Shown here one piece after another: positions 4,356 through 17,402 of a stretch of DNA of 33,204 nucleotides. A model generated the notes under the pieces. That model was not told the origin of the DNA, searched no databases, and saw only the letters and a list, made by a program, of their open reading frames with translations. Source of the DNA: Lachnospiraceae bacterium (GTDB taxonomy: Bacteria > Bacillota > Clostridia > Lachnospirales > Lachnospiraceae); the NCBI GenBank assembly GCA_017624495.1, contig JAGAMY010000023.1, positions 1 to 33,204 on the forward strand, given 5' to 3'. Numbering within the stretch: the stretch's first letter is position 1; every line of letters starts with the position of its first letter. The translations under genes were made by a program, and so were the position numbers.

Positions 4356-5423
4356 TTGGAAAATGAAATTACAATGTATCAGTCGGTTATTACAGATATA
4401 AAAGATATAATCTCCTCTGGAAGAAAATTCGCTTATAATGCTACAAATAAAGCTATTGTGCTTACTTATTGGCAGATTGGCAGGCGTATTGTGGAGCAGG
4501 AACAGGGTGGAAAAGAAAGGGCTGAATACGGAAAGGCTTTACTTGAAATTTTGTCAGATGAACTTACAAGAGAATATGGAAAAAGTTATTCTAAAAGAAA
4601 TCTTCAATATTTTAGAAAATTTTATCTTGCATTTCCAGATGAGCAAATTGTGAACGCATGCGTTCACAATTTGAATTGGACACATTTTAGATGTTTATTG
4701 CGTGTTACGGACGAAGCAGCAAGATTGTGGTATATGAAAGAGGCTTCACAAGAAGGCTGGAGTTCAAGAACATTGGATAGAAATATTGGTACACAATATT
4801 ATTACAGATTAGTTCAGTCGCCAAAAAAGGAAAATGTAATAAATGAAATGTTACAGAAAAATATTGAAAATCAACAAAATAAATTTGAGCTGCTAAAAAA
4901 CCCGGTAGTTGCAGAGTTTCTAGGGTTTAAGAACGAGGATACCTACCTTGAAAATGATTTGGAGTCAGCCATATTGACACATATTAGAGATTTTTTAATG
5001 GAGATGGGAAAAGGGTTTGCTTTTGTTGCACGACAGCAACATATAGTGACAGAAACGGAAGACTATTATATAGACCTTGTTTTTTATAATATTGAATTAA
5101 AATGTTATGTGCTTATTGATTTGAAAATGGGGAAAATTACACATCAAGATGTCGGACAGATAGACATGTATGTTCGTATGTATGATGATTTAAAGTGTAA
5201 AGAAGGGGATAATCCTACACTTGGCATTCTTTTGTGTGGAGAAACAGATGAGGATATTGCAAGATATTCTGTATTGCATGACAACGACAGATTATTTATG
5301 TCTAAATACCTCACATATTTACCATCAAAGGAGAAACTAAAAGAAGAAATAGAAAGACAAAAGGAAATATTTTATATGCAATATCCGGCGTTTAAAGAGA
5401 ATGGTGGTGAAGAAAATGAGTAA
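4356..5423 (+). CDS. YhcG-type PD-(D/E)XK nuclease family protein (DUF1016), intact
   Basis: Intact 355-residue protein starting at a TTG, with AGGTG placed 7 bases upstream in the end of the hsdM remnant. The N-terminal half is the DUF1016 helical domain (YWQIGRRIVEQEQ, then YSKRNLQYFRKFYLAFP and LNWTHFRCLLRV). The C-terminal half is the nuclease-like domain with YYIDLVFYNIELKCYVLIDLK, where D and the DLK triad match the PD-(D/E)XK core. Such genes are often inserted in type I restriction operons and may assist or regulate them; the biochemical role is not settled. It is the only undamaged gene of the island. A perfect 30-bp palindrome lies inside the coding sequence at 4644-4673. Confidence 0.88.
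   Translation: MENEITMYQSVITDIKDIISSGRKFAYNATNKAIVLTYWQIGRRIVEQEQGGKERAEYGKALLEILSDELTREYGKSYSKRNLQYFRKFYLAFPDEQIVNACVHNLNWTHFRCLLRVTDEAARLWYMKEASQEGWSSRTLDRNIGTQYYYRLVQSPKKENVINEMLQKNIENQQNKFELLKNPVVAEFLGFKNEDTYLENDLESAILTHIRDFLMEMGKGFAFVARQQHIVTETEDYYIDLVFYNIELKCYVLIDLKMGKITHQDVGQIDMYVRMYDDLKCKEGDNPTLGILLCGETDEDIARYSVLHDNDRLFMSKYLTYLPSKEKLKEEIERQKEIFYMQYPAFKENGGEENE
4644..4673. repeat. Perfect 30-bp palindrome inside the DUF1016 gene
   Basis: Left arm CAAATTGTGAACGCA (4644-4658) is followed directly by its exact reverse complement (4659-4673), with no spacer. It encodes part of QIVNACVHNL just before the conserved NWTHFR block. Such a dyad could extrude as a hairpin in DNA or fold in the mRNA. 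Confidence 0.95.
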
Positions 5424-5691
5424 ACTTGAGGAATTGATACAGAAACTTTGTCCGGATAAGGTGGAATATAAGAAAATTGGTGAAATAGCTTTTTATGAGC
5501 AACCATCAAAATATATTGTAAATAGTATAGATTATAGTGATGATTTTGAAGTGCCAGTACTTACAGCAGGACAATCATTTATATTAGGATATACAAATGA
5601 AAAAAATGGAATTTACAAAGCATCTAAAGATGATGCAATCGATAGTTGTGTTGCAAGAAAGAACTATTCAGGATTATCGTTCTACATATAA
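5416..5691 (+). pseudogene. hsdS: Type I restriction specificity subunit HsdS, N-terminal fragment
   Basis: Reading from ATG 5416, which overlaps the stop of the DUF1016 gene by 8 bases, gives MSKLEELIQKLCPDKVEYKK and later [17 protein letters not shown] and GIYKASK. This is the start of the first target-recognition domain of an HsdS subunit. Homology ends at about 5628. The remaining in-frame codons to the stop at 5691 are the hsdR remnant read out of frame. About 70 of roughly 400 residues survive, so no sequence specificity can be conferred. The breakpoint with hsdR lies within a few bases of 5629 and marks a deletion that removed most of hsdS and of hsdR. Confidence 0.88.
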
Positions 5692-6256
5692 TGATATTCG
5701 TGAATGGCTACGGCGCGAAAAGGAAGGAGAAAATAGAGAACGTTTAGTAATTGATTGGGATGATGTCGTATTTGAAGTAGATTTATTAAAATCGCAGGAG
5801 ATTGATTTAGATTATATTCTTGAGTTGATTTTTGAGAAAAATAAAAATACAAAAGATAAGAGTTTTTTGGTAGAGGAAATTCGACGAATAATACGTTCTA
5901 GTACAGAAAATCGTGCTAAGGAAAGCATGATTGTGGATTTTGTGAACCAAACAGATTTGGATGAAATTAAGGATAAAGCAAGCATTATTGATTTGTTTTA
6001 TCAATTTGCGCAAAAAGAACTAAAGAAAGAGGCGGAGAAACTGATAAAGGCGGAAAAACTTAATGAGGATGCTGCAAAACGATATATCCTTGCATCGTTA
6101 AAAAAGGAATATGCAAGTGAAAATGGAACGGCATTAAACGAGATTCTTCCTAAAATGAGCCCACTCAATCCAGAATATCATACTAAGAAACAGCGTGTAT
6201 TTGAAAAAATATCTGCTTTTGTAGAAAAATTTAATGGTGTAGGTGGAGTGATATAG
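5630..6256 (+). pseudogene. hsdR: Type I restriction endonuclease HsdR, C-terminal fragment
   Basis: From about 5630, in the frame ending at 6256, the protein reads [20 protein letters not shown], then [20 protein letters not shown] and a long helical tail ending [21 protein letters not shown]. This is the helical C-terminal domain of HsdR that docks on the methylase core. The N-terminal nuclease and the DEAD-box motor (together about 800 residues) are missing, and there is no start codon or ribosome binding site of its own. It is joined directly to the hsdS fragment with a frame change. Nonfunctional remnant. Confidence 0.88.
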
Positions 6257-6294
6257 TTAGCCTTGACAGAGAGGGATTTGGACTTATCAAAAAA

Positions 6295-6330
6295 AAGCAG
6301 ATTTGACAAAAAGCTAGATTACAATATAAT
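6295..6330 (+). promoter_or_regulatory. fabV promoter, containing the right copy of the 26-bp direct repeat
   Basis: TTGACA (6303-6308), a 16-base spacer and TATAAT (6325-6330) form a strong promoter. Bases 6295-6320 repeat 3785-3810 (24 of 26 identical). In this copy the repeat supplies the -35 and half of the spacer. Confidence 0.8.
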
Positions 6331-6386
6331 AATATAGATAGAGAATGTTCACAGAGTGAATGAATAGGATACAATTGGAGGACAAT

Positions 6387-7550
6387 ATGGTAGTAGAACC
6401 AAAAGTAAAAGGATTTATATGTACAACAGCACATCCTGTTGGTTGTGAAAAAAATGTAGAGAATCAGATTCGTTATACAAAAGAAAATGGAAAAATCGAT
6501 GGGGCAAAAAAAGTATTAGTTATCGGAGCATCTACAGGTTATGGTTTAGCATCCCGTATTACCGCAGCCTTTGGTATGGGCGCAGCTACCATTGGTGTCA
6601 TGTTTGAAAAAGAGGCAACCGGCAAACGAACAGCTACACCGGGATTTTACAATACAAGAGCCTTTGATGAAGCTGCAAAAAAAGAAGGACTGTATACAAA
6701 ATCTATCAATGGTGATGCATTTTCCAAAGAAATTAAAGATGAAGTAATTGCCACCATCAAAAAAGATTTAGGTCAGGTGGATATGGTGGTATATTCCCTT
6801 GCTGCACCAAGACGAATTTTAGCAGACGGTACGAGTGTATCCTCCAGCTTAAAAACCATTGGCGAACCGTTCACACAGAAAAACTGGAATTTTAAAGATA
6901 ATACCATTGGTGAAGGTACTATTGGCAGTGCTACAGAAGAAGAAATCGCAGGAACCGTAAAAGTTATGGGCGGTGAAGACTGGATGGAATGGATAGATGC
7001 TTTAGTAGAAAATGATGCTATTGCAGAAAATGCCGTAACTTTAGCTTATTCTTACATTGGACCAAAACTTACATATCCGGTATATCATGAAGGCACGATT
7101 GGTATGGCAAAAAAACACTTAAAGGAAAGCGCAGATGCCATTACGAAAAAACAGTCCGCAAAAGGTATTAAAGCCTATGTTTCTGTTAATAAAGCCTTGG
7201 TAACACAGGCAAGTGCGGCAATTCCTGTTGTACCATTATACTTATCTGTACTTTACAAAGTCATGAAAGAAAAAGATATTCATGAGGGCTGTATTGAGCA
7301 GATGAATCGTTTATTTAAGGATAAAATTTATGGAAATGATGCTGTTGAAATCTTTGAAGACGGCATGATTCATGTGGATGACTGGGAAATGCGAGACGAT
7401 GTGCAAAGCACAGTTATGGATATCTGGGAGAAAATCTGCACGGAGAATTTCTTAGAATTAGCAGATGCAGATGGCTATTGGGATGATTTCTATCATATGT
7501 TTGGATTTAAAATGGATGGTGTGGATTATTCCGTAGATGTAGAAGTTTAG
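6387..7550 (+). CDS. fabV: Trans-2-enoyl-CoA/ACP reductase (FabV/Ter), NADH-dependent
   Basis: 387-residue single-chain reductase that saturates the C2-C3 double bond of enoyl-ACP or enoyl-CoA. The Rossmann motif VIGASTGYGLASR follows the characteristic N-terminal VKGFICTTAHPVGCE block. Active-site Tyr and Lys occur as Y-x8-K in YHEGTIGMAK, and the family hallmarks YSLAAPRR and AYSYIGPK are present. ATG 6387 is preferred over the in-frame ATG at 6360 because GGAGG (6377-6381) sits 5 bases before it and the family starts at this point. It is monocistronic, with its own promoter and terminator. In clostridia the enzyme may serve fatty-acid synthesis, butyrate-type crotonyl-CoA reduction, or both; sequence does not decide. 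Confidence 0.95.
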   Translation: MVVEPKVKGFICTTAHPVGCEKNVENQIRYTKENGKIDGAKKVLVIGASTGYGLASRITAAFGMGAATIGVMFEKEATGKRTATPGFYNTRAFDEAAKKEGLYTKSINGDAFSKEIKDEVIATIKKDLGQVDMVVYSLAAPRRILADGTSVSSSLKTIGEPFTQKNWNFKDNTIGEGTIGSATEEEIAGTVKVMGGEDWMEWIDALVENDAIAENAVTLAYSYIGPKLTYPVYHEGTIGMAKKHLKESADAITKKQSAKGIKAYVSVNKALVTQASAAIPVVPLYLSVLYKVMKEKDIHEGCIEQMNRLFKDKIYGNDAVEIFEDGMIHVDDWEMRDDVQSTVMDIWEKICTENFLELADADGYWDDFYHMFGFKMDGVDYSVDVEV

Positions 7551-7570
7551 AATGTGTTTGTGATTGTAAA

Positions 7571-7604
7571 AATAGAGTTTCTGTTAAAGAAGCTCTATTT
7601 TTTT
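7571..7604 (+). terminator. Rho-independent terminator of fabV
   Basis: Arms 7571-7582 and 7588-7599 pair over 12 bases (one G-T wobble) around a GTTAA loop, followed by a T run to 7604. Confidence 0.9.
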
Positions 7605-7674
7605 ACAAAATCTGTAACGAATTTTATTTTAGATGGACTAATTTACAGAAACACAAAAGAGGAGGTGACATTCC

Positions 7675-8166
7675 ATGGATATGGCACATATGTGTGAGGA
7701 ATATTATCAGACTGTGCTAGGCTATCTTATCAGTTTAACAGGCGGTAATTATGATGTAGCAGAGGAACTGACACAGGAAACTTTTTATCGTGCTATCAAA
7801 AATGCCAAAAGCTTTCGTGGGGACAGCAAAATGTCCACATGGCTGTGTCAGATAGCAAAATATACATTTTATCAGTATATTGACCGTAAAAACCGCCATA
7901 AAGAAGTTTCTATGGACACTGTCACAGATTTAGAAGCGGCACAGCAGATAGAGAAGCAGTATATTGATGAAGAACAGAAGCTGGAAATTTTAAAGGTTAT
8001 TCAAAAGCAGCAAAGTCCTTTAAAAGATGTGTTGATGCTACGTCTTTTGGGAGATTTGAGTTTTAAGGAGATTGGAGAAATTCTGGGAAAAAATGAAAAC
8101 TGGGCAAGAGTAACTTTTTATCGTGGGAAACAAATCATCGGAAAGGAGCTGAAAGAAAATGCATAG
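7675..8166 (+). CDS. ECF-type RNA polymerase sigma factor (sigma-70 family)
   Basis: 163-residue two-domain sigma factor. Region 2 covers about residues 8-75 (DVAEELTQETFYRAIKNAKSF, then MSTWLCQIAKYTFYQYI) and region 4 about 105-160 (LKDVLMLRLLGDLSFKEIGE, then NENWARVTFYRGK). No region 1 or 3 is present. The start is set by GAGGAGG just upstream. Its last 8 bases overlap the next gene, a zinc-finger anti-sigma factor, which is the usual sigma/anti-sigma coupling. A GTAAC element at 7614-7618 resembles an ECF-type -35, so autoregulation is possible but unproven. The controlled genes probably include this operon; the inducing stress is unknown. Confidence 0.93.
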   Translation: MDMAHMCEEYYQTVLGYLISLTGGNYDVAEELTQETFYRAIKNAKSFRGDSKMSTWLCQIAKYTFYQYIDRKNRHKEVSMDTVTDLEAAQQIEKQYIDEEQKLEILKVIQKQQSPLKDVLMLRLLGDLSFKEIGEILGKNENWARVTFYRGKQIIGKELKENA

Positions 8167-8473
8167 AGAATATAAGGATTGTGAAATTGTGTTTGATTTA
8201 CTGCCTCTTTATCTGGATGGAAAAACAAATAGTGAAAGTAATGCCTATGTAACAGCACATTTAAAGTCATGCGAAAACTGCCGGCAGACATTTTCTTTTA
8301 TGCAAAAAGATTTTGGGGAATTTTCAGTGAAACAGTCGGTGAGTCCGGTAAAAAAACGTGGAAAAATCAGTAGGACAAAGCTGCTGTTGATTTGCGTACT
8401 AGGGTTGTATATTTTCGGACTTGCAGGATTTATTGTCTGGTTTTTTTGCGCAACGGCATTACCTGTTTTATAA
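8159..8473 (+). CDS. Zinc-finger anti-sigma factor, single membrane helix
   Basis: 104-residue protein with an N-terminal zinc-binding anti-sigma domain: C8 followed by H34-x3-C38-x2-C41 in HLKSCENCR. One membrane helix lies at about residues 76-98 and only a few residues follow on the far side. It should hold the upstream sigma factor at the membrane. The start ATG overlaps the sigma stop (ATGCATAG), so the two are translationally coupled. Having almost no extracytoplasmic part, it probably cannot sense a signal on its own; the next two membrane proteins may do this. Confidence 0.88.
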   Translation: MHREYKDCEIVFDLLPLYLDGKTNSESNAYVTAHLKSCENCRQTFSFMQKDFGEFSVKQSVSPVKKRGKISRTKLLLICVLGLYIFGLAGFIVWFFCATALPVL

Positions 8474-8490
8474 TCACGAGGAGAAAAGAC

Positions 8491-8820
8491 ATGAAGGATG
8501 TAAAATGTGAAATTGTAGGGGATTTGCTAGTTTCTTACAGAGATAAAATGACAACAAAAGAGACAACAGAAATGTTAGAAGAGCATTTGTCAGTATGTGA
8601 TTTTTGCAGGGATAAGTATGCAAAACTGCAACAGTTATCCGATGAAGAGGAAAAAAAAGAAACAGACAGGGGAAAGCAGTTTCAGAAAAAGTTGCTGACC
8701 TATAGGGCTTATGGTATTGGTTTTTTTATTGGACTGTTTCTGCCTGTTTTTATACTTACGGTATTGTTTTTACTGCGAATGTTGACGGAAGCAATACGAG
8801 ATAAATGTATATTTTTTTAG
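8491..8820 (+). CDS. Second zinc-finger anti-sigma-like membrane protein
   Basis: 109-residue protein that resembles its upstream neighbour in layout. It has C6 followed by H32-x3-C36-x2-C39 in HLSVCDFCR, then a charged linker (EEEKKETDRG) and a membrane helix at about 76-100. ATG 8491 is chosen because GAGGAG (8478-8483) precedes it; an open frame extends upstream to 8392 but overlaps the preceding gene. Likely a duplicated or partner anti-sigma factor. Two such proteins behind one sigma factor suggest a heteromeric inhibitor or divided sensing, which is inference. Confidence 0.82.
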   Translation: MKDVKCEIVGDLLVSYRDKMTTKETTEMLEEHLSVCDFCRDKYAKLQQLSDEEEKKETDRGKQFQKKLLTYRAYGIGFFIGLFLPVFILTVLFLLRMLTEAIRDKCIFF

Positions 8821-10941: not shown

Positions 10942-11002
10942 TAACCTAGCTTGACACTAGGTTATATAAATGATAAATTTTATTAAGTTAGCGTCAACTA
11001 AC
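10942..11002 (+). promoter_or_regulatory. Promoter and twin dyads in front of the ABC/nitrogenase-like operon
   Basis: Perfect dyad TAACCTAG-N7-CTAGGTTA (10942-10964) encloses TTGACA (10951-10956), a consensus -35. TAAATT (10974-10979), 17 bases on, is an acceptable -10. A second dyad GTTAG-N6-CTAAC (10987-11002) lies where transcription would start. Both loops contain TTGAC, in opposite orientation. The arrangement suggests tight repression, plausibly by a metal- or cofactor-responsive regulator; the regulator is not in the window. Confidence 0.6.
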
Positions 11003-11026: not shown

Positions 11027-12262
11027 ATGAAGAGAAAAATATTATCCCTAGTATTATGTGCAACCATGTTGTTTAGTATGACCGCATGTGGTGGCACAAA
11101 AGAAGAAGCATCTGCGACAACAGGACAGGAAACTGTTACAGCAGAAAATACAGAAACAGCAGAAAACACAGAAAATGTGAATGAAGCTACAAAAGAAGCC
11201 GGAGAAACAGAAGAGGTAGCTGGTGGCAGCGGTATGATTACAGTAACTGACCAGAATGGTATGGAAGCAACCATCGAAGCAAACCCTGACAGATTAGTAA
11301 CAACGGCTCTTCCACTGCCAAGTATCTATGCATTAACAGGTGCACCAATTGAGTACTTAGTCGGTGTACATCCAGGCTCTACAAGTGCCATTGAAAATTC
11401 TGTCATGGCAGCCATGTATCCGGAATTAAAGGGTATTGCAGATAACTTTATTGAAGGAACGGATGTCAACGTAGAAGAGTTATTAAAGTTAGAGCCGGAT
11501 GTGGTTTTATACTGGGCAGAGTATTTAGAACAGTACGAAGCGATGAGTAATGCCGGAATCAACGCAGTTGGCGTAAAAACACAGGACAACGGAAATGTAC
11601 TTTCTACATTGGAAAGCTGGCTTACCATCATGAAGGAGATTTTTGGTGATACGGGAAATGTAGACAAGGTTATCGAATATGGACATAAAATGGAAGCTGA
11701 AATTGAAGCGCAGACAGCAGAAATTGCCGACGAGGATAAACCAAAGGTGCTGTACTTATACAACCATAGTTCTGAAGATATCAGCGTAAGCGGTGCAGAT
11801 TTCTATGGAGATTACTGGATTAAGGCAGCAGGCGGTATTAACGCAGCAGCAGAATTAACAGGTCCTACCTCTGTAAATATGGAACAGATTTATGAATGGG
11901 ATCCGGATATCATTATCATTACAACTTTTACAGAAACCATGCCGGAAGATTTATATAATAACACCATTGACGGACAGGACTGGAGTCAGGTAAGTGCTGT
12001 ATTGAATGGAAAAGTTATCAAAGAGCCATTAGGTGTTTACAGATGGTTTCCACCATCAGGTGATGCGCCTTTAATGTTAAAATGGATGGCACAGACCTTA
12101 CACCCGGACAAGTTTACTTATGACATGAAGGAAGAAATCAAAGCATACTACGAAGAATTCTATAACTACACTTTAGATGATGCGCAGGTTGAAGGAATCT
12201 TAAATGCAGACCCACAGGCGGCTAAAGGTGCGAACTTCGGAGGCGGCGCAAACAGATCATGA
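11027..12262 (+). CDS. Lipoprotein substrate-binding protein of a siderophore/corrinoid-type ABC importer
   Basis: 411-residue exported binding protein. A lipoprotein signal peptide (MKRKILSLVLCATMLFSM) ends at the lipobox TAC, so the mature protein is anchored outside the membrane by its Cys. An acidic Thr/Glu-rich linker (about 25-70) follows. The BtuF/FhuD-type fold begins at MITVTDQNGMEATIEANPDR and includes VEELLKLEPDVVLYW and YEWDPDIIIITT, typical of the periplasmic-binding family for iron chelates, haem and cobalamin. ATG 11027 is chosen over 10970 because GGAGGAG precedes it and the signal peptide starts there. First gene of the six-gene operon; its ligand is presumably what the reductase acts on. 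Confidence 0.9.
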   Translation: MKRKILSLVLCATMLFSMTACGGTKEEASATTGQETVTAENTETAENTENVNEATKEAGETEEVAGGSGMITVTDQNGMEATIEANPDRLVTTALPLPSIYALTGAPIEYLVGVHPGSTSAIENSVMAAMYPELKGIADNFIEGTDVNVEELLKLEPDVVLYWAEYLEQYEAMSNAGINAVGVKTQDNGNVLSTLESWLTIMKEIFGDTGNVDKVIEYGHKMEAEIEAQTAEIADEDKPKVLYLYNHSSEDISVSGADFYGDYWIKAAGGINAAAELTGPTSVNMEQIYEWDPDIIIITTFTETMPEDLYNNTIDGQDWSQVSAVLNGKVIKEPLGVYRWFPPSGDAPLMLKWMAQTLHPDKFTYDMKEEIKAYYEEFYNYTLDDAQVEGILNADPQAAKGANFGGGANRS

Positions 12263-13263
12263 TAAAAACGGGAAAATATAAAGGTATATTCATCGTATTA
12301 ATTGCGATGCTGATAGGCACATTGTTAGCAGCCATCTGTATCGGGCGTTATTCCTTAAGCGTAACGGAGGTTTTTAAGATTCTCTTTAATATCGGAGAAA
12401 TGGAAAAGACGAAGACCATTGTCGTGTGGAGTGTGCGTTTTCCACGAACCGTTATGGCAATGATGGTTGGCGCAGGTTTAGCCTGTGTGGGCGTGTGTTT
12501 ACAGGCAATGTTTGCAAATCCTTTAGTCAGCTCTCATATCCTGGGCGTATCCTACAGCTCAGGATTTGGGGCAGCCCTTGGGATTTTGCTAAGCAGTAAT
12601 TTTTTGATTATTCAGGGTTCTGCCCTTGTCTTTGGTTTTGTGGGAATGGCATTAACCTACCTCATGAGTCGCAAAAACGGCAGAAGCAGTACGATTATGC
12701 TGGTATTGTCCGGTACGATTATCGGAGCGGTGTTTGAAGCACTGACATCCTTTATTAAATATATCGCTGACCCGGAAGAAAAACTTCCGGCAATTACCTA
12801 CTGGCTGATGGGAAGTCTTGCAGGCTCTTCCATGAAAGATGTTTTGAAAGTAGTTCCGGTGGTTGGTGTGGCAATGCTTATCCTCTGGCTGATTCGCTGG
12901 CGGTTAAACGTAGTATCTTTAAGGGAGGATGAAGCTGCATCCTTGGGCGTAAATGTAAAAAATACACGAATTATCGTTATTGTGGCAACTACAGTGATTG
13001 TATCCATATCTGTATCCTTTTGTGGAGTAATTTCCTTTGTAGGATTGGCTGTACCGCATCTGGCACGAATGATTGTGGGAAATGACCATAAATATTTGCT
13101 CCCGGCAAGTATTTTGATGGGCGGCATATTTCTGGTTATTATTGATACCGTAGCAAGAAGTCTGACTGCATCAGAAATACCGTTATCTATTTTAACAGCG
13201 TTAGTAGGCGCGCCGATATTTGCCATGCTATTGCACAAAACAGGAGGTGGATGGAGTGATTAA
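12259..13263 (+). CDS. FecCD-family permease of a metal-chelate/corrinoid ABC importer
   Basis: 334-residue polytopic protein of the BtuC/FhuB/FecCD family with about nine to ten membrane helices. Family hallmarks are VRFPRTVMAMMVGAGLACVG near the N-terminus, NPLVSSHILGVSYSSGFGAA, and the coupling and last-helix region FVGLAVPHLARMIVGNDHKY. The start ATG overlaps the stop of the binding protein (ATGA at 12259-12262), so translation is coupled. With the neighbouring ATPase it forms a complete type II importer. The family carries Fe-siderophores, haem and cobalamin; sequence alone does not separate these. Confidence 0.94.
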   Translation: MIKTGKYKGIFIVLIAMLIGTLLAAICIGRYSLSVTEVFKILFNIGEMEKTKTIVVWSVRFPRTVMAMMVGAGLACVGVCLQAMFANPLVSSHILGVSYSSGFGAALGILLSSNFLIIQGSALVFGFVGMALTYLMSRKNGRSSTIMLVLSGTIIGAVFEALTSFIKYIADPEEKLPAITYWLMGSLAGSSMKDVLKVVPVVGVAMLILWLIRWRLNVVSLREDEAASLGVNVKNTRIIVIVATTVIVSISVSFCGVISFVGLAVPHLARMIVGNDHKYLLPASILMGGIFLVIIDTVARSLTASEIPLSILTALVGAPIFAMLLHKTGGGWSD

Positions 13264-14038
13264 AGCAGAAAATTTAACCTTTTCCTATGATGGAAAAAAG
13301 GATATTTTTCATAACATTTCTTTTCATGTGCCTAAGGGAGAAATCATGGCTGTATTAGGTGCAAACGGTGTAGGAAAAACCACCATGATGCGCTGTATCA
13401 TGCGTTTTCTGCATTTAAATGGCGGAGAGGTATATTTAGATGGCAAGAATGTAAAAAAACTATCGGACAGCCAGTTTTGGGAGAAAACCAGTTACGTCCC
13501 ACAGGCAAAAAGTCTTGTATTTGGTTATAGTGTGCTGAATATGGTGGTGATGGGACGAAGTGGATTTGTCAAATTTGGCTATACACCGGGAAAAGCAGAG
13601 TATGAAAAAGCGTATGCCCTTTTAGAAGAAATGGGATTAGAGGAATTTGCCCATCGCTCCTGCAACAGTCTAAGTGGAGGACAGTTACAGATGGTACTGA
13701 TTGCCAGAGCGTTAATCAAAGAACCGGATGTACTGATTATGGATGAACCGGAATCCAATCTGGATATGCGAAATCAGCTAAAGGTCTTAGAAATTATGAA
13801 AAAAATATCGAAGGAGCGTGGCGTAACCGTAATTATCAATACCCATTACCCGGAGCATGCCCTTAGATATACAGATAAAACATTGATTTTAGGAAAGGAT
13901 TCCTTTGTATTTGATGAGTCAAAAAAGGCAATTACAAAAGAGAATATTTATAAATACTTTAAAGTAGAAGCCAGTGTTTATGATGTGGAAGTTGGCGATG
14001 AAAAATATCAGGGAATACTGCCAATTTCTTATATTTAG
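13256..14038 (+). CDS. ATPase subunit of the metal-chelate/corrinoid ABC importer
   Basis: 260-residue ATP-binding subunit (FepC/BtuD type). Walker A is GANGVGKT (35-42), the Q-loop is VPQ (81-83), the signature is LSGGQ (139-143) and Walker B is LIMDEP (160-165), with the switch histidine in NTHYPEHA. The start is GTG 13256, 8 bases after AGGAGG and overlapping the permease stop; an open frame to 13220 exists but has no ribosome binding site. About 50 residues after the core make a short extension. It lies 38 bases before the NifH-like gene with no terminator between, which ties the importer to the reductase genes. Confidence 0.93.
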   Translation: MIKAENLTFSYDGKKDIFHNISFHVPKGEIMAVLGANGVGKTTMMRCIMRFLHLNGGEVYLDGKNVKKLSDSQFWEKTSYVPQAKSLVFGYSVLNMVVMGRSGFVKFGYTPGKAEYEKAYALLEEMGLEEFAHRSCNSLSGGQLQMVLIARALIKEPDVLIMDEPESNLDMRNQLKVLEIMKKISKERGVTVIINTHYPEHALRYTDKTLILGKDSFVFDESKKAITKENIYKYFKVEASVYDVEVGDEKYQGILPISYI

Positions 14039-14076
14039 AATGATATGCAAAATGAAAAAATGACAGGAGAATGACA

Positions 14077-14838
14077 ATGCTTAAAATTGCAGTTTACGGA
14101 AAAGGTGGAATCGGAAAATCCACAACCACTTCCAATTTATCCGCAGCTTTATCCGACTTAGGATTAAAGGTCATGCAGATTGGATGTGACCCAAAGGCGG
14201 ATTCCACGAAAAACTTAGTTTCAGGAATGAAGATTCCAACTGTACTTAATCAGATAAAAGAAAAAGGAAAAAACATTAAATTAGAAGATATCGTATTTAA
14301 AGGCTATGGAAATACTTTATGCGTAGAAGCCGGTGGACCAACCCCCGGAATCGGTTGCGCAGGAAGAGGAATTATTGCAGCCTTTGAAGAATTAGAAAGG
14401 CTTCACGCCTATGAAGAATATCAGCCGGATGTGGTATTGTATGACGTATTAGGTGACGTTGTATGTGGCGGTTTTGCCATGCCAATCCGTGGCGGTTATG
14501 CAGACCATGTATTTGTGGTTTCCTCTGGAGAAATGATGTCATTATATGCCGCAAATAACATTGCCAGTGCTATAAAGAGTTTTGGTACAAGAGGCTATGC
14601 GAAATTCGAAGGTTTAATTTTAAACTCCAGAAATATTGAAAACGAATTGGAAATCGTAGAAAAAGCCGCAGAAGAAATGGAAACAAAAATTGTAAAAGTA
14701 CTGCCAAGAAGTGGTGAAGTACAGTTAGCAGAAGCAGAGAAAAAGACCGTTGTAGAAGCATTGCCGGAATCTGCAATGGCAGCAGAATACAGAGATTTGG
14801 CAAAACAGGTATTGGAGGTATGTGGACATGAGTTGTAA
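14077..14838 (+). CDS. NifH-like iron protein (ATP-dependent reductase component), group IV type
   Basis: 253-residue homologue of nitrogenase Fe protein, ChlL/BchL and CfbC. It would dimerise around a [4Fe-4S] cluster and pass electrons to the NifD/NifK-like pair at the cost of ATP. The P-loop is GKGGIGKST (8-16), switch I is CDPKADST (37-44), and both cluster cysteines are present: C94 in GIGCAGRG and C130 in [13 protein letters not shown]97 matches the arginine that is ADP-ribosylated in true NifH. ATG 14077 is preferred to 14071 because AGGAG (14065-14069) then has 7-base spacing. It is shorter than NifH, and no nif or bch/chl partner genes lie nearby, so nitrogen fixation and chlorophyll synthesis are unlikely. 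Confidence 0.95.
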
Positions 14839-16141
14839 AAGTTGTGACGCAGGGCATTTTAGAAGCTCCTTAGAATACACCTGCCCATCCCATGGCGGAT
14901 GGGGAATGGTTAGAATCGGTATGTTGATACCGGAAAGCCACCAGATATTTGTCTGTCCCTCTGCCTGTGGAAGGCATGGTGCGTTGGGCGCAATTAAGCA
15001 GGGATTGAAAAACAGATTATCCTATTTATATTTAGAAGAAAGTGATGTTATATCCGGCTATGACGATGCAATTTATGATGCAGTAGAGGAGCTGTTGGTG
15101 CGTTTACAGAAACGTCCGAAGGTAATTATCGTATTTGTAAGCTGCTTAGATGATTTGATTGGAACAGATGAAAATGCTGTTATGGCGGAGCTTTCGAACC
15201 GTTATCCGGATGTAAAATTCCGCATGGGTCACATGAATCCGATTCAGACAGATTCCGATGAGCCGCCTTTAGTAAGCATCTGGAAAAATGTATACAGCCT
15301 GATGGAAAGAACCGTTGATACCGTAAAGCCGGCAGTAAACATGCTGGGAAATTATGTGGCAATTGACGAAAAAAGTGAATTTATTAAGGTTTTAAAGGAG
15401 TTAGGCATAGACGTATACCATATCGAAAACTTAAATACCTATGAAGAATTAAAGGATATGGGAAATCATGCATTAAATATTCTGCTTACCTCTGCCGTGG
15501 AAAAAGTTGCAGGACAGTTAGAAAAAGAGCAGAATATGGCATATTTGAAAGCTCCGGTAAATTATAATCTCAAAGAAATCAAAGCCGGTTATCAGGCATT
15601 GTTTGAAAAATTGGCAGAAATAGGTCAGTTGGGAGGTTCTGTATCTTCTGAAAGAATCGAGATTCCGGCAAAGGTAGAAGAAATACTTATTGACAGTGAA
15701 AAACGTGCGTTATCCGCCATCCAGAAAGCAAAAATGCTCATTGGTGACAGAGATATTCATATTGATTATTCTGCTTTTGTTCATCCTTTTTCCGCAGCAA
15801 AATTCTTTTATGAGAATGGTTTTTCCATTAAAAAAATTTATGCAAAGGAAATGGATGAAAACGATGCAGATTACCAGTGGGTAAAAAATGAAACGGATAT
15901 TGAAATCATTCCAATAAAAAAACACGACATTGTCCATATGTGGAAAGAGCATGAAGACAGTATATCCATTGGCTTAGAAGCTGCCTATGTATCCGGCAGC
16001 AGACATGTGGTGTCTGTTTTTCAGGATGAAAAAATGTATGGTTATCATGGCATATGTCTGTTAATGGAACATCTGATAAACTGTATAAAAGAAGATGTGG
16101 ATTTAGAAGATGTCATTAACAAAGCAGGATTAGTCGTATAA
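14828..16141 (+). CDS. NifD-like catalytic subunit of a nitrogenase-like reductase
   Basis: 437-residue member of the nitrogenase component 1 family. Three cysteines match the NifD P-cluster ligands: C19 in [10 protein letters not shown]47 in PSACGRHG (like GPVGCG) and C106 in SCLDDLIG. Extra cysteines are C3/C6 (MSCKSC) and C43. Near the C-terminus GYHG aligns with the NifD loop that holds the FeMo-cofactor His. The region matching the FeMo-cofactor Cys ([11 protein letters not shown]) has no Cys, so a bound FeMo-co is not expected. ATG 14828 is chosen because GGAGG (14814-14818) is 9 bases away; it overlaps the NifH-like stop by 11 bases. Expected to pair with the next protein and share a bridging Fe-S cluster. 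Confidence 0.92.
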
Positions 16142-16151
16142 GGAGGATAGC

Positions 16152-17330
16152 ATGGGAAAATTATGTATGACATTACCACCATTTTCACCGGATTATTCCG
16201 GTGTGTGTTCCGCCTTATTTCCGTTTGATACCTTAACGGTTTTGCATGATGCCTCCGGCTGTACCGGAAATTATACCGGCTATGATGAAGCGAGATGGTT
16301 TCGGTCAAGAAGTCCGATTTACTGCTCCGGGCTTCGGGAAATTGATGCGATATTAGGTGATGATGAAAAACTGATACAGAAAATTTTGTATGCGCTAGAA
16401 GATATCAAACCGGAAATGATTGCTGTAGTAGGCAGTCCTGTTCCGATGGTTATTGGGACAGATATGGAAGGAATTGCAGCAGAAATTGAAAACCGCACCG
16501 GAATCATGGCAGTTGGTTTTCCAACAACAGGTATCAAATACTACCCACAGGGGATTGCCATGGTGTATAAAAAAGTGGTGCAGAGAATATTAGAAGAGGA
16601 TAACACACAGGCGGTAAAAGAAGAAAATACTGTAAATATCCTTGGTGCTACACCCATTGATTTTGGCAGAAGCGGTACTATCGAAGAGTTGACAAAATTT
16701 CTTGAAGAAAATGGAATCACTGTAAGGAAGACCTTATGGGAAAATGTAAAAAAATCCGATGTGGTACAGCTAAAACATGCGGCATGTAATATCGTGGTAT
16801 CTAATGCCGGAATTGAGCTGGCAGAATATATGGAAAAAGAGTATGGTATTCCCTATGTAACGGGATTGCCGTATGGGGAAAAATATGCGGATATTTGGCT
16901 GGCAGAAGTGAAAAAAGTGCTGACAGGTGAGACAAGTAAAGTGTCATCTGCAGCAGGAGCAAACGAAGAGGTGTTAGGCAGCATAAAGGATAGTGCAGAA
17001 AGTAGTGCGAAAATTCTTATCCTCGGTGAACAGGTTCAGTGCAATTCTATCCGAAATGCTATTTTTGCAGAAACAGGTGAAAACTGCGATGTGGCAGGCA
17101 TTTGTGGCTGGGATAACAGATTTGCAGAAGCGAAGGATACATTTTTAGAATCGGAAGCGGAGATTGAGCAGATTTTAAATGCGGATAAATATGAGTGTAT
17201 TATTGGCGACCCATTGTATAAGGATTTGTTGCATACGGATAAAAAATTCTGTGTACATCCACATTATGCGGTGTCTAGTAAACTGGGGAATGAAGAGACG
17301 AGAAGTCTGATTGGGAAGAAGGTATTTTAA
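16152..17330 (+). CDS. NifK-like subunit of a nitrogenase-like reductase
   Basis: 392-residue component 1 family protein. C19 (DYSGVCSALFPF) and C37 (LHDASGCTGNY) match the first two NifK P-cluster ligands. The third site, in VVGSPVPMVIGTD, has no Cys; S95 is nearest. The block YCSGLREIDAILGDDEKLIQ aligns with the NifK segment after the cluster (SSSMTEDAAVFGG), which supports the NifK/NifN-type assignment. GGAGG precedes the ATG, 10 bases after the NifD-like stop. It is shorter than NifK. It is the last gene of the operon, which ends at the terminator from 17348. One missing ligand suggests a modified cluster, as in DPOR where an Asp replaces a Cys. Confidence 0.9.
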   Translation: MGKLCMTLPPFSPDYSGVCSALFPFDTLTVLHDASGCTGNYTGYDEARWFRSRSPIYCSGLREIDAILGDDEKLIQKILYALEDIKPEMIAVVGSPVPMVIGTDMEGIAAEIENRTGIMAVGFPTTGIKYYPQGIAMVYKKVVQRILEEDNTQAVKEENTVNILGATPIDFGRSGTIEELTKFLEENGITVRKTLWENVKKSDVVQLKHAACNIVVSNAGIELAEYMEKEYGIPYVTGLPYGEKYADIWLAEVKKVLTGETSKVSSAAGANEEVLGSIKDSAESSAKILILGEQVQCNSIRNAIFAETGENCDVAGICGWDNRFAEAKDTFLESEAEIEQILNADKYECIIGDPLYKDLLHTDKKFCVHPHYAVSSKLGNEETRSLIGKKVF

Positions 17331-17347: not shown

Positions 17348-17402
17348 AAAAGTCCATCTGATGTTGCGATGTGTATATACGACTGTCAGATGGACTTTTC
17401 TT
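17348..17402 (+). terminator. Terminator of the nitrogenase-like operon
   Basis: Arms 17348-17361 and 17386-17399 are perfect 14-base complements (right arm TCAGATGGACTTTT) around a 24-base loop; the right arm supplies the T run. Confidence 0.88.

Follow-up and report, generated by a model that had tools for sequence, protein, structure and literature searches.

A nitrogenase-like reductase and a type II ABC importer encoded as one conserved six-gene set

The operon in the Lachnospiraceae window

The DNA analysed is a stretch of 33,204 nucleotides (the window) from contig JAGAMY010000023.1 of a Lachnospiraceae bacterium (assembly GCA_017624495.1, positions 1 to 33,204), in which six consecutive genes on the forward strand encode an ATP-binding cassette (ABC) importer followed by a nitrogenase-like reductase. 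The first gene (11027..12262) encodes a substrate-binding protein (SBP) of family PF01497, read as a lipoprotein from a lipobox-like LFSMTAC close to its N terminus; ATG 11027 is the likely start, the open reading frame (ORF) being readable from 10970. It is followed by a FecCD-type permease (PF01032, 287 bits; 12259..13263) and by an ABC transporter ATPase (PF00005; 13256..14038), whose GTG start at 13256 is preceded by AGGAGG. The reductase is encoded by the next three genes, a NifH-like protein, here H (PF00142, 320 bits; 14077..14838, likely start ATG 14077), and two component-1 proteins of family PF00148, here D (84 bits; 14828..16141, likely start ATG 14828) and K (134 bits; 16152..17330).

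With the likely starts, the genes overlap by 4, 8 and 11 bases or are separated by gaps of 38 and 10, and K is followed on the same strand by an intrinsic terminator-like hairpin with a U-rich tail (about 17348..17399), which folds at -23.7 kcal/mol (z -5.4), none of 200 shuffles being equally stable. The original prediction, made from the sequence before this analysis, had described six co-directional genes with gaps of at most 38 bases and a terminator behind them, an arrangement confirmed by the ORFs, the Pfam matches and the fold of the hairpin. A terminator consensus scan restricted to loops of 3-8 did not list this hairpin. On the 5' side, a promoter-like TTGACA-17-TAAATT on the forward strand (10951..10979) is a consensus match only, and such matches were not more numerous in the region upstream of the operon than in shuffles. 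The GC content of the operon is 40.5%, against 37.7% for the window. D and K were the sole PF00148 matches within the source genome, an assembly of 1.93 Mb judged 54.7% complete.

Linkage of reductase and importer across genomes

When 299 genomes of the same family were queried with D, 60 matched, and 40 stretches were retrieved. These were mainly of two sorts, one with H, D and K (HDK) beside SBP, permease and ATPase genes and the other with HDK, often in two sets, beside other genes. The linkage itself was surveyed with an alignment of 18 K proteins (17 taken from loci of the importer type), which was scanned against 84,980 species genomes; the best 80 loci were chosen solely for the similarity of their K. 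In 66 of these 80 loci, all six genes (H, D, K, SBP, permease and ATPase) were detected by tblastn on the same strand and within 8 kb of K. In 13 of the 14 incomplete loci, a contig end lay at most 2.8 kb from K, on the side where the missing genes are expected from the commonest gene order; the 14th (L121, Lactococcus hodotermopsidis) lacks the importer. The linkage is not accidental. As the query consisted mostly of importer-type K proteins, the 66/80 figure is valid for this group and not for every nitrogenase-like gene. The earlier claim that reductase and importer form a unit was therefore borne out by a co-occurrence survey that could have overturned it, transporter and reductase genes being linked in most relatives.

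All six genes were also found in each of the ten genomes of the family search that matched D best, the source genome aside. A set of 18 carrier genomes was surveyed for other features; the remaining eight of them were chosen from loci already known to be complete and provide no test of linkage. G143, a 98% complete genome of the same genus and the closest complete relative, had no FecCD gene besides the linked permease.

Seven kinds of gene string were observed among 75 complete loci, the window being included and eight duplicates dropped. The order HDK-SBP-permease-ATPase was found in 50 of them and the same order with a second SBP in seven, the window order (SBP-permease-ATPase-H-D-K) in six and four other strings in 5, 4, 2 and 1. 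Gene order shuffles while the six-gene set stays.

Among the hosts are Lachnospiraceae, Oscillospiraceae, Christensenella, Syntrophomonas, Tissierella, Treponema and other Spirochaetota, and Synergistota, as well as one Accumulibacter assembly. One copy is borne by plasmid pTS1 of Treponema saccharophilum, where it is annotated as 'nitrogenase component 1' and 'iron ABC transporter permease'. In the 84,980 species genomes, at least 556 of at least 596 stretches matching K patterns encode a relative, and none was found in the viral contigs searched. The coupling of reductase and importer is real and is conserved within its group, across several phyla of anaerobes.

Two HDK-importer sets (L101 and L136) lie a few kb apart on contig JAGAVZ010000098.1 of a Cellulosilyticum sp.

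Properties of the reductase and of the importer

As had been predicted, the P-loop and the two [4Fe-4S] cysteines (C96 and C132, in the 14071 frame) are intact in the NifH-like protein, and both cysteines are invariant in 19/19 aligned rows. No NCBIfam cut-off was reached by H, D or K. H scored below those of CfbC, NifH, BchL and BchX, with CfbC as its best match (351.6 bits, cut-off 402), and its identity was 48-52% to NifH rows and 37-38% to BchX rows. The best match was NifE for both D (50.7 bits) and K (82.2 bits), and K was also matched by the CfbD model at 39.1 bits (cut-off 268.4). Two PF00148 component-1 proteins are thus present, as predicted, whereas their description as NifD-like and NifK-like needs correction, both scoring best against NifE; 'D' and 'K' are used as positional labels only.

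The component-1 tree contained 128 proteins, including 49 D and 49 K rows that represent this group, from the window and 41 of the 120 loci L033-L152 (22 rows of group Ai, including the window, 7 of group Aii and 13 loci of type B, the last two being sister sets described below). It also held two BchN, four BchB and two BchZ rows and one Mar locus, recognised by a 452-bit match to the solved 'Nitrogenase' chain 9fmg, presumed here to be the MarD chain of the published Mar structure. It is a quick tree with long branches and this single Mar locus, of which only the separation of large clades was used. The 49 D and the 49 K rows formed one clade each, with a support of 100 in the Shimodaira-Hasegawa-like approximate likelihood ratio test (SH-aLRT), apart from NifD, NifK, NifE, NifN, MarD, MarK, BchN, BchB and BchZ. 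Placement inside a group of known function had been named beforehand as fatal to the prediction, and D and K fell inside none of the Nif, Mar, BchN/B or BchZ groups; for CfbC and CfbD this was judged by model scores, which lay far below the cut-offs.

Three of the six P-cluster cysteine positions of nitrogenase are kept, two in D and one in K. Columns C88 and C154 hold Cys in 49/49 D rows and column C88/C95 does so in 49/49 K rows, while no D or K row has Cys in column C62/C70. In the window, C49 and C108 of D occupy the positions of NifD C88 and C154, columns C62 and C275 being without Cys, and C37 of K occupies that of NifK C95, columns C70 and C153 being without Cys. The column of C275, a ligand of the iron-molybdenum cofactor (FeMo-co), has Cys in 0/49 D and 0/49 K rows. 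To judge by these patterns, the cluster of the group is most likely of the [4Fe-4S] type, and both a P-cluster and a FeMo-co of the known kind are probably missing.

In combining a NifH-like protein with a two-subunit component 1, the set resembles dark-operative protochlorophyllide oxidoreductase (DPOR, BchLNB) and chlorophyllide oxidoreductase (COR, BchXYZ), and BchN, BchB and BchZ rows, like D and K, have no Cys in the C275 column. However, Cys is found in three P-cluster columns of BchN rows and in only two of D. The [4Fe-4S] cluster of DPOR is held by three cysteines of N and one aspartate of B, and the column of the first of these N cysteines contains no Cys in D, which departs from DPOR in this ligand. 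Moreover, D and K are outside the BchN, BchB and BchZ clades, and no chlorophyll gene was recognised near the operon. As for CfbCD, the window H is nearest the CfbC model, yet H and K score below the CfbC and CfbD cut-offs as given above, and CfbD is a homodimer (PMC11423573), whereas component 1 is encoded here by two distinct genes. Mar (MarHDK) and Isr belong to the same superfamily and reduce small sulfur compounds. ABC importers are likewise encoded at the isr locus (IsrBHDK), namely SsuABC and TauABC (PMC11423573), to which the window importer does not belong, being of a different class. Mar carries P- and [Fe8S9C]-clusters (PMC12552129), the ligands of which are missing in D and K, and these do not group with MarD and MarK. 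From nitrogenase (NifHDK), the set differs in the absence of the FeMo-co ligand Cys275 from D.

At one MarD-like locus (L206, C. sporosphaeroides), the neighbouring genes read, from their ORF starts, as a cysteine synthase and homoserine sulfur genes; the same genome also carries an importer-linked HDK set.

With a PF01497 SBP, a PF01032 permease and a PF00005 ATPase, the importer is of type II (BtuCD/FecCD class). A permease tree was made with 32 linked permeases and with 38 of the 46 unlinked ones found in the 18 carrier genomes, eight mostly weak or partial ones being omitted. In this tree, 31 of the 32 linked permeases (Bacillota, Spirochaetota and Synergistota), including that of the window, formed one clade with an SH-aLRT of 94, just below the starred level, which contained none of the 38 unlinked permeases; the 32nd, from Accumulibacter, fell outside. 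The distances between K proteins and between permeases correlate over 70 loci (r 0.55; maximum of 0.18 in 500 shuffles), without correction for shared host ancestry. The importer therefore looks dedicated, and its sequences look like a specialised subfamily and not like a borrowed B12 or siderophore system.

Compared with solved structures, the SBP profile gave its top match with 4ovk ('periplasmic binding protein', 312.1 bits), followed by MolA (3psa; molybdate/tungstate, 140.6), 4hn9 (deposited as 'iron complex', 122.2), two unnamed proteins (108 and 104.4) and nickel-binding proteins (92.0 and 91.6). IsdE (42.3), BtuF (35.1) and haem proteins (25.8-29.2 bits) were weaker matches. Names given by depositors are not ligand tests; for MolA, the ligand has been tested (PMC4031551). 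MolA, which belongs to the type II molybdate/tungstate importer MolBCA of Haemophilus (PMC4031551), is the best-scoring solved SBP relative with a tested ligand; the eight linked SBPs that it matches best share 28-31% identity with it. No invariant His, Met or mature Cys was found among 18 aligned SBPs. The best NCBIfam matches of the permease were BtuC models, at 218.2 bits against a cut-off of 461. An Rfam search of the window and 28 relatives found no riboswitch, cobalamin riboswitches included, upstream of the operon; the only matches were tRNAs, two TwoAYGGAY motifs and one drum small RNA. The original prediction of a possible corrinoid importer thus found no support: the permease is under the BtuC cut-off, BtuF scores far below MolA (35.1 against 140.6 bits) and no cobalamin riboswitch was matched, so that the corrinoid label was rejected.

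The TwoAYGGAY cis-regulatory motifs (L048:13231-13395 and L110:16082-16268) lie downstream of their operons on the opposite strand, and the drum small RNA lies in another relative, about 2 kb and two genes upstream of the operon.

MoeA is needed for the molybdenum cofactor. It was absent in 14 of the 18 carriers, including the closest complete relative, and present in four; molybdenum for the usual cofactor is therefore an unlikely cargo, and molybdate or tungstate imported for this cofactor, first hinted at by the likeness to MolA, was set aside. As to nif partners in the same 18 genomes, D and K were the only PF00148 proteins over cut-off in 15, and NifB exceeded its cut-off in one. Split NifB-like matches below the cut-off were found in two carriers (G004 and G699), adjoining their extra PF00148 genes.

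The gene neighbours were surveyed at 89 loci, ten examples being Pfam-checked and the remainder read by eye. Neighbours fitting metals or redox chemistry were a CobW/HypB-like GTPase (7 loci), DtxR (4), a P-type ATPase (4) and flavodoxin (3). An XRE-type regulator (4), a MATE-like transporter (4) and SBP_bac_6 proteins without an evident signal peptide (4 and 3) also recurred. No tetrapyrrole gene was recognised among the checked recurrent neighbours, and no recipient enzyme for a metallocluster among the recurrent neighbours of the 89 loci. Taken together, the SBP profile and the MoeA, riboswitch and neighbour data point weakly to a cargo that would be a metal-containing compound other than haem or B12.

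At seven loci (L081, L083, L086, L087, L102, L105 and L120), the CobW/HypB-like GTPase recurs near the HDK-importer genes, accompanied by SBP_bac_6 proteins that show no clear signal peptide, some of these loci having also an ABC-like ATPase and a Crp/Fnr regulator.

Proposed function and alternatives

Two sister sets bear on the function of the system. Group Aii consists of seven loci of the same family with HDK and importer genes as in the window group. In five of the seven (L044, L048, L049, L050 and L052), the [FeFe]-hydrogenase maturases HydE or HydF or the TM1266 regulator are encoded inside or beside the operon, and all seven Aii genomes have one HydE over cut-off, which in two (G117 and G227) is the operon copy. 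In type B, Hyp genes adjoin the reductase. HypF, HypD and HypE were Pfam-checked beside HDK at L046 (G191:C1:1420000-1439900), and HypD and HypE at L045; ORFs of the same sizes are present in L047, L051, L053-L057, L061, L064, L066, L068 and L071, where HDK often occurs in two sets. HypC was found in 17/17 type B genomes checked, and in 16 it shares a contig with the cluster and lies close to it, whereas the large subunit of NiFe-hydrogenase had no match in 15 of the 17, the two partial matches adjoining a second HypC. A full set for making Fe(CN)2CO may, to judge by these gene contents, serve the nitrogenase-like pair in type B. The component-1 tree unites Aii with one set of most type B loci in a single subclade within the importer-linked group.

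In two loci (L047:5448-8012 and L066:8354-10792), D and K are encoded in a single open frame of 854 and 812 amino acids that matches both profiles.

The function that we propose is that of an ATP-driven reductase with a [4Fe-4S]-type cluster, acting on the compound that its dedicated importer brings in, a reading to which we assign a probability of about 0.5. Outside the cell, the lipoprotein would capture one specific small compound, probably one that contains a metal, for import by the FecCD permease and the ATPase. The NifH-like protein would then hand ATP-gated electrons of very low potential to the D-K complex. This complex would hold only a [4Fe-4S]-type cluster, presumably bound by two cysteines of D, one of K and another ligand, and its cavity would be the place where the imported compound is reduced, in the way that tetrapyrroles are reduced by DPOR and CfbCD. 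The imported compound would thus be the substrate of the reductase. Tentatively, and with less confidence, the set could represent a new class of reaction in the nitrogenase superfamily devoted to nutrient capture, in which gut and sediment anaerobes reduce a scavenged metal complex, and not N2, a C-S bond or a tetrapyrrole, to free or remodel its metal, through an ATP-gated enzyme with a co-evolved importer; the sister lineages would then combine the same type of enzyme with makers of a hydrogenase-type iron-CO/CN cofactor.

Several observations weigh against the proposal that the reductase acts on the imported compound. The conserved linkage also fits a transporter that only supplies metal for cofactor assembly, and the related HDK genes of type B lie beside Hyp genes and have no such importer. 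In Lactococcus hodotermopsidis (L121), HDK is found without such an importer although 10 kb are present on either side, and the least clear of the 13 contig-end loci (L077) has 2.8 kb past K without a recognised SBP. The correlation of K and permease distances takes no account of shared host ancestry. Completeness figures cover ten of the 18 carriers, so that absences in the other eight are weaker. The commonest neighbour family (24/89 loci) resembles, by eye, ABC exporters and does not speak for metals, and no hint of metals comes from the Crp/Fnr regulator (14 loci), the S-adenosylmethionine methyltransferase (8) or the dehydrogenase-like protein (7). Regarding the cluster, C21 of D lies a few residues from the C62 column, and 18% of Ai D rows have a Cys at a distance of three columns. 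C19 of K lies near the C70 column, with such a Cys in 77% of Ai, 86% of Aii and 45% of type B K rows; these off-column cysteines could act as cluster ligands.

A doubtful but serious alternative, close to a suggestion already in print (Dos Santos et al., 2012; PMC3464626), is that a metal ion or an oxyanion is the cargo of the importer and that H, D and K are a NifEN-like scaffold which builds or inserts a metallocluster for another enzyme. NifE is not only the best NCBIfam match of D and K but also heads their PDB profile matches, the SBP is nearest to MolA and to proteins deposited as iron-complex or nickel binding, and the sister sets adjoin HydE, HydF and TM1266 or HypF, HypD, HypE and HypC. 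This scaffold role is at odds with NifB exceeding its cut-off in a single carrier, with the absence of C275 from all 98 D and K rows and with the lack of a recipient enzyme among the listed recurrent neighbours, and the MoeA data argue against molybdate or tungstate as its cargo. Import of haem, a corrinoid or a breakdown product of chlorophyll, followed by reduction of its ring as in DPOR, COR and CfbCD, is unlikely in turn. FecCD/PF01497 systems do include haem and B12 importers, BtuF, IsdE and HutB are among the weaker matches of the SBP profile, and BtuC models top the NCBIfam list of the permease, although far under their cut-off. Tetrapyrroles are the substrates of DPOR and CfbCD, whose clusters are all of the [4Fe-4S] type (PMC12552129). 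Against a tetrapyrrole stand the scores of the SBP (BtuF 35.1, IsdE 42.3, haem proteins 29.2 and 25.8 against 140.6 bits for MolA), its lack of an invariant His, Met or mature Cys, the absence of a cobalamin riboswitch in the window and 28 relatives and of recognised tetrapyrrole genes among the checked neighbours, and the position of D and K outside BchN, BchB and BchZ.

Nitrogen fixation and the reduction of C-S bonds in methylthio-alkanes, as by Mar, are very improbable in spite of the common superfamily, and both were rejected, the ligands being missing and D and K lying in other clades than NifDKEN, MarD and MarK. The P-cluster cysteine positions are reduced from six to three, the C275 ligand is absent throughout, NifB is confined to one carrier in 18, and no sulfur-salvage genes were seen beside the window operon, unlike at the MarD-like locus of C. 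sporosphaeroides. Scarcely credible is a chance or hitch-hiking adjacency of two unrelated operons. The importer class is common, with 64 FecCD genes over cut-off in the 18 carrier genomes (about 3.6 each), but by our own estimate linkage within 8 kb on the same strand would arise by chance in about 1% of genomes, against 66 complete loci in 80, seven gene strings, several phyla and a single clade of linked permeases.

The reductase-importer system belongs to a kind that is known in print but uncharacterised, because its cysteine pattern and its ABC-transporter neighbourhood were published in 2012. The same two-plus-one cysteines were described then in Methanocorpusculum labreanum (Mlab_1040/1039), Desulfitobacterium hafniense (Dhaf_1539/1540), Coprococcus catus and Dorea longicatena, and nitrogenase-like genes, those of M. 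labreanum among them, were noted beside ABC transporters (Dos Santos et al., 2012; PMC3464626). That clade and the window group share these cysteines (49/49 D and 49/49 K rows here), the lack of the FeMo-co Cys275 and a NifH-like partner; their common descent is suggested by the cysteine pattern and not by a tree. The relevant passages of the 2012 paper contain no linkage count or permease analysis, unlike the present work, which adds the clade formed by the linked permeases, a gene set that is kept while its order shuffles, and the rarity of nif partners. In the openly licensed literature, no characterised substrate was found, and judging by such papers the function of the clade has been open since 2012. 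For a 'group VI', a role connected with tetrapyrroles has been put forward (PMC9391474).

The genes are common, given the relatives counted above, and the dedicated importer offers a handle, as the ligand of the binding protein may reveal the substrate of the reductase. A survey of nifH in the human gut reported many 'Cluster IV' sequences of largely unknown function (PMC4995403), and the finding that 15 of the 18 carriers have no other component-1 protein fits the warning that such sequences abound in gut nifH surveys.

Two minor observations concern single loci. In the L. hodotermopsidis locus, a methyltransferase-like gene lies immediately upstream of HDK. Elsewhere in the window (4356-8820) are a YhcG-type nuclease, a stretch whose match to a type I restriction R subunit is confined to the C-terminal part of the latter, FabV, and an ECF sigma factor with two zf-HC2 anti-sigma-like ORFs behind it, of which the second is slightly below the Pfam cut-off.

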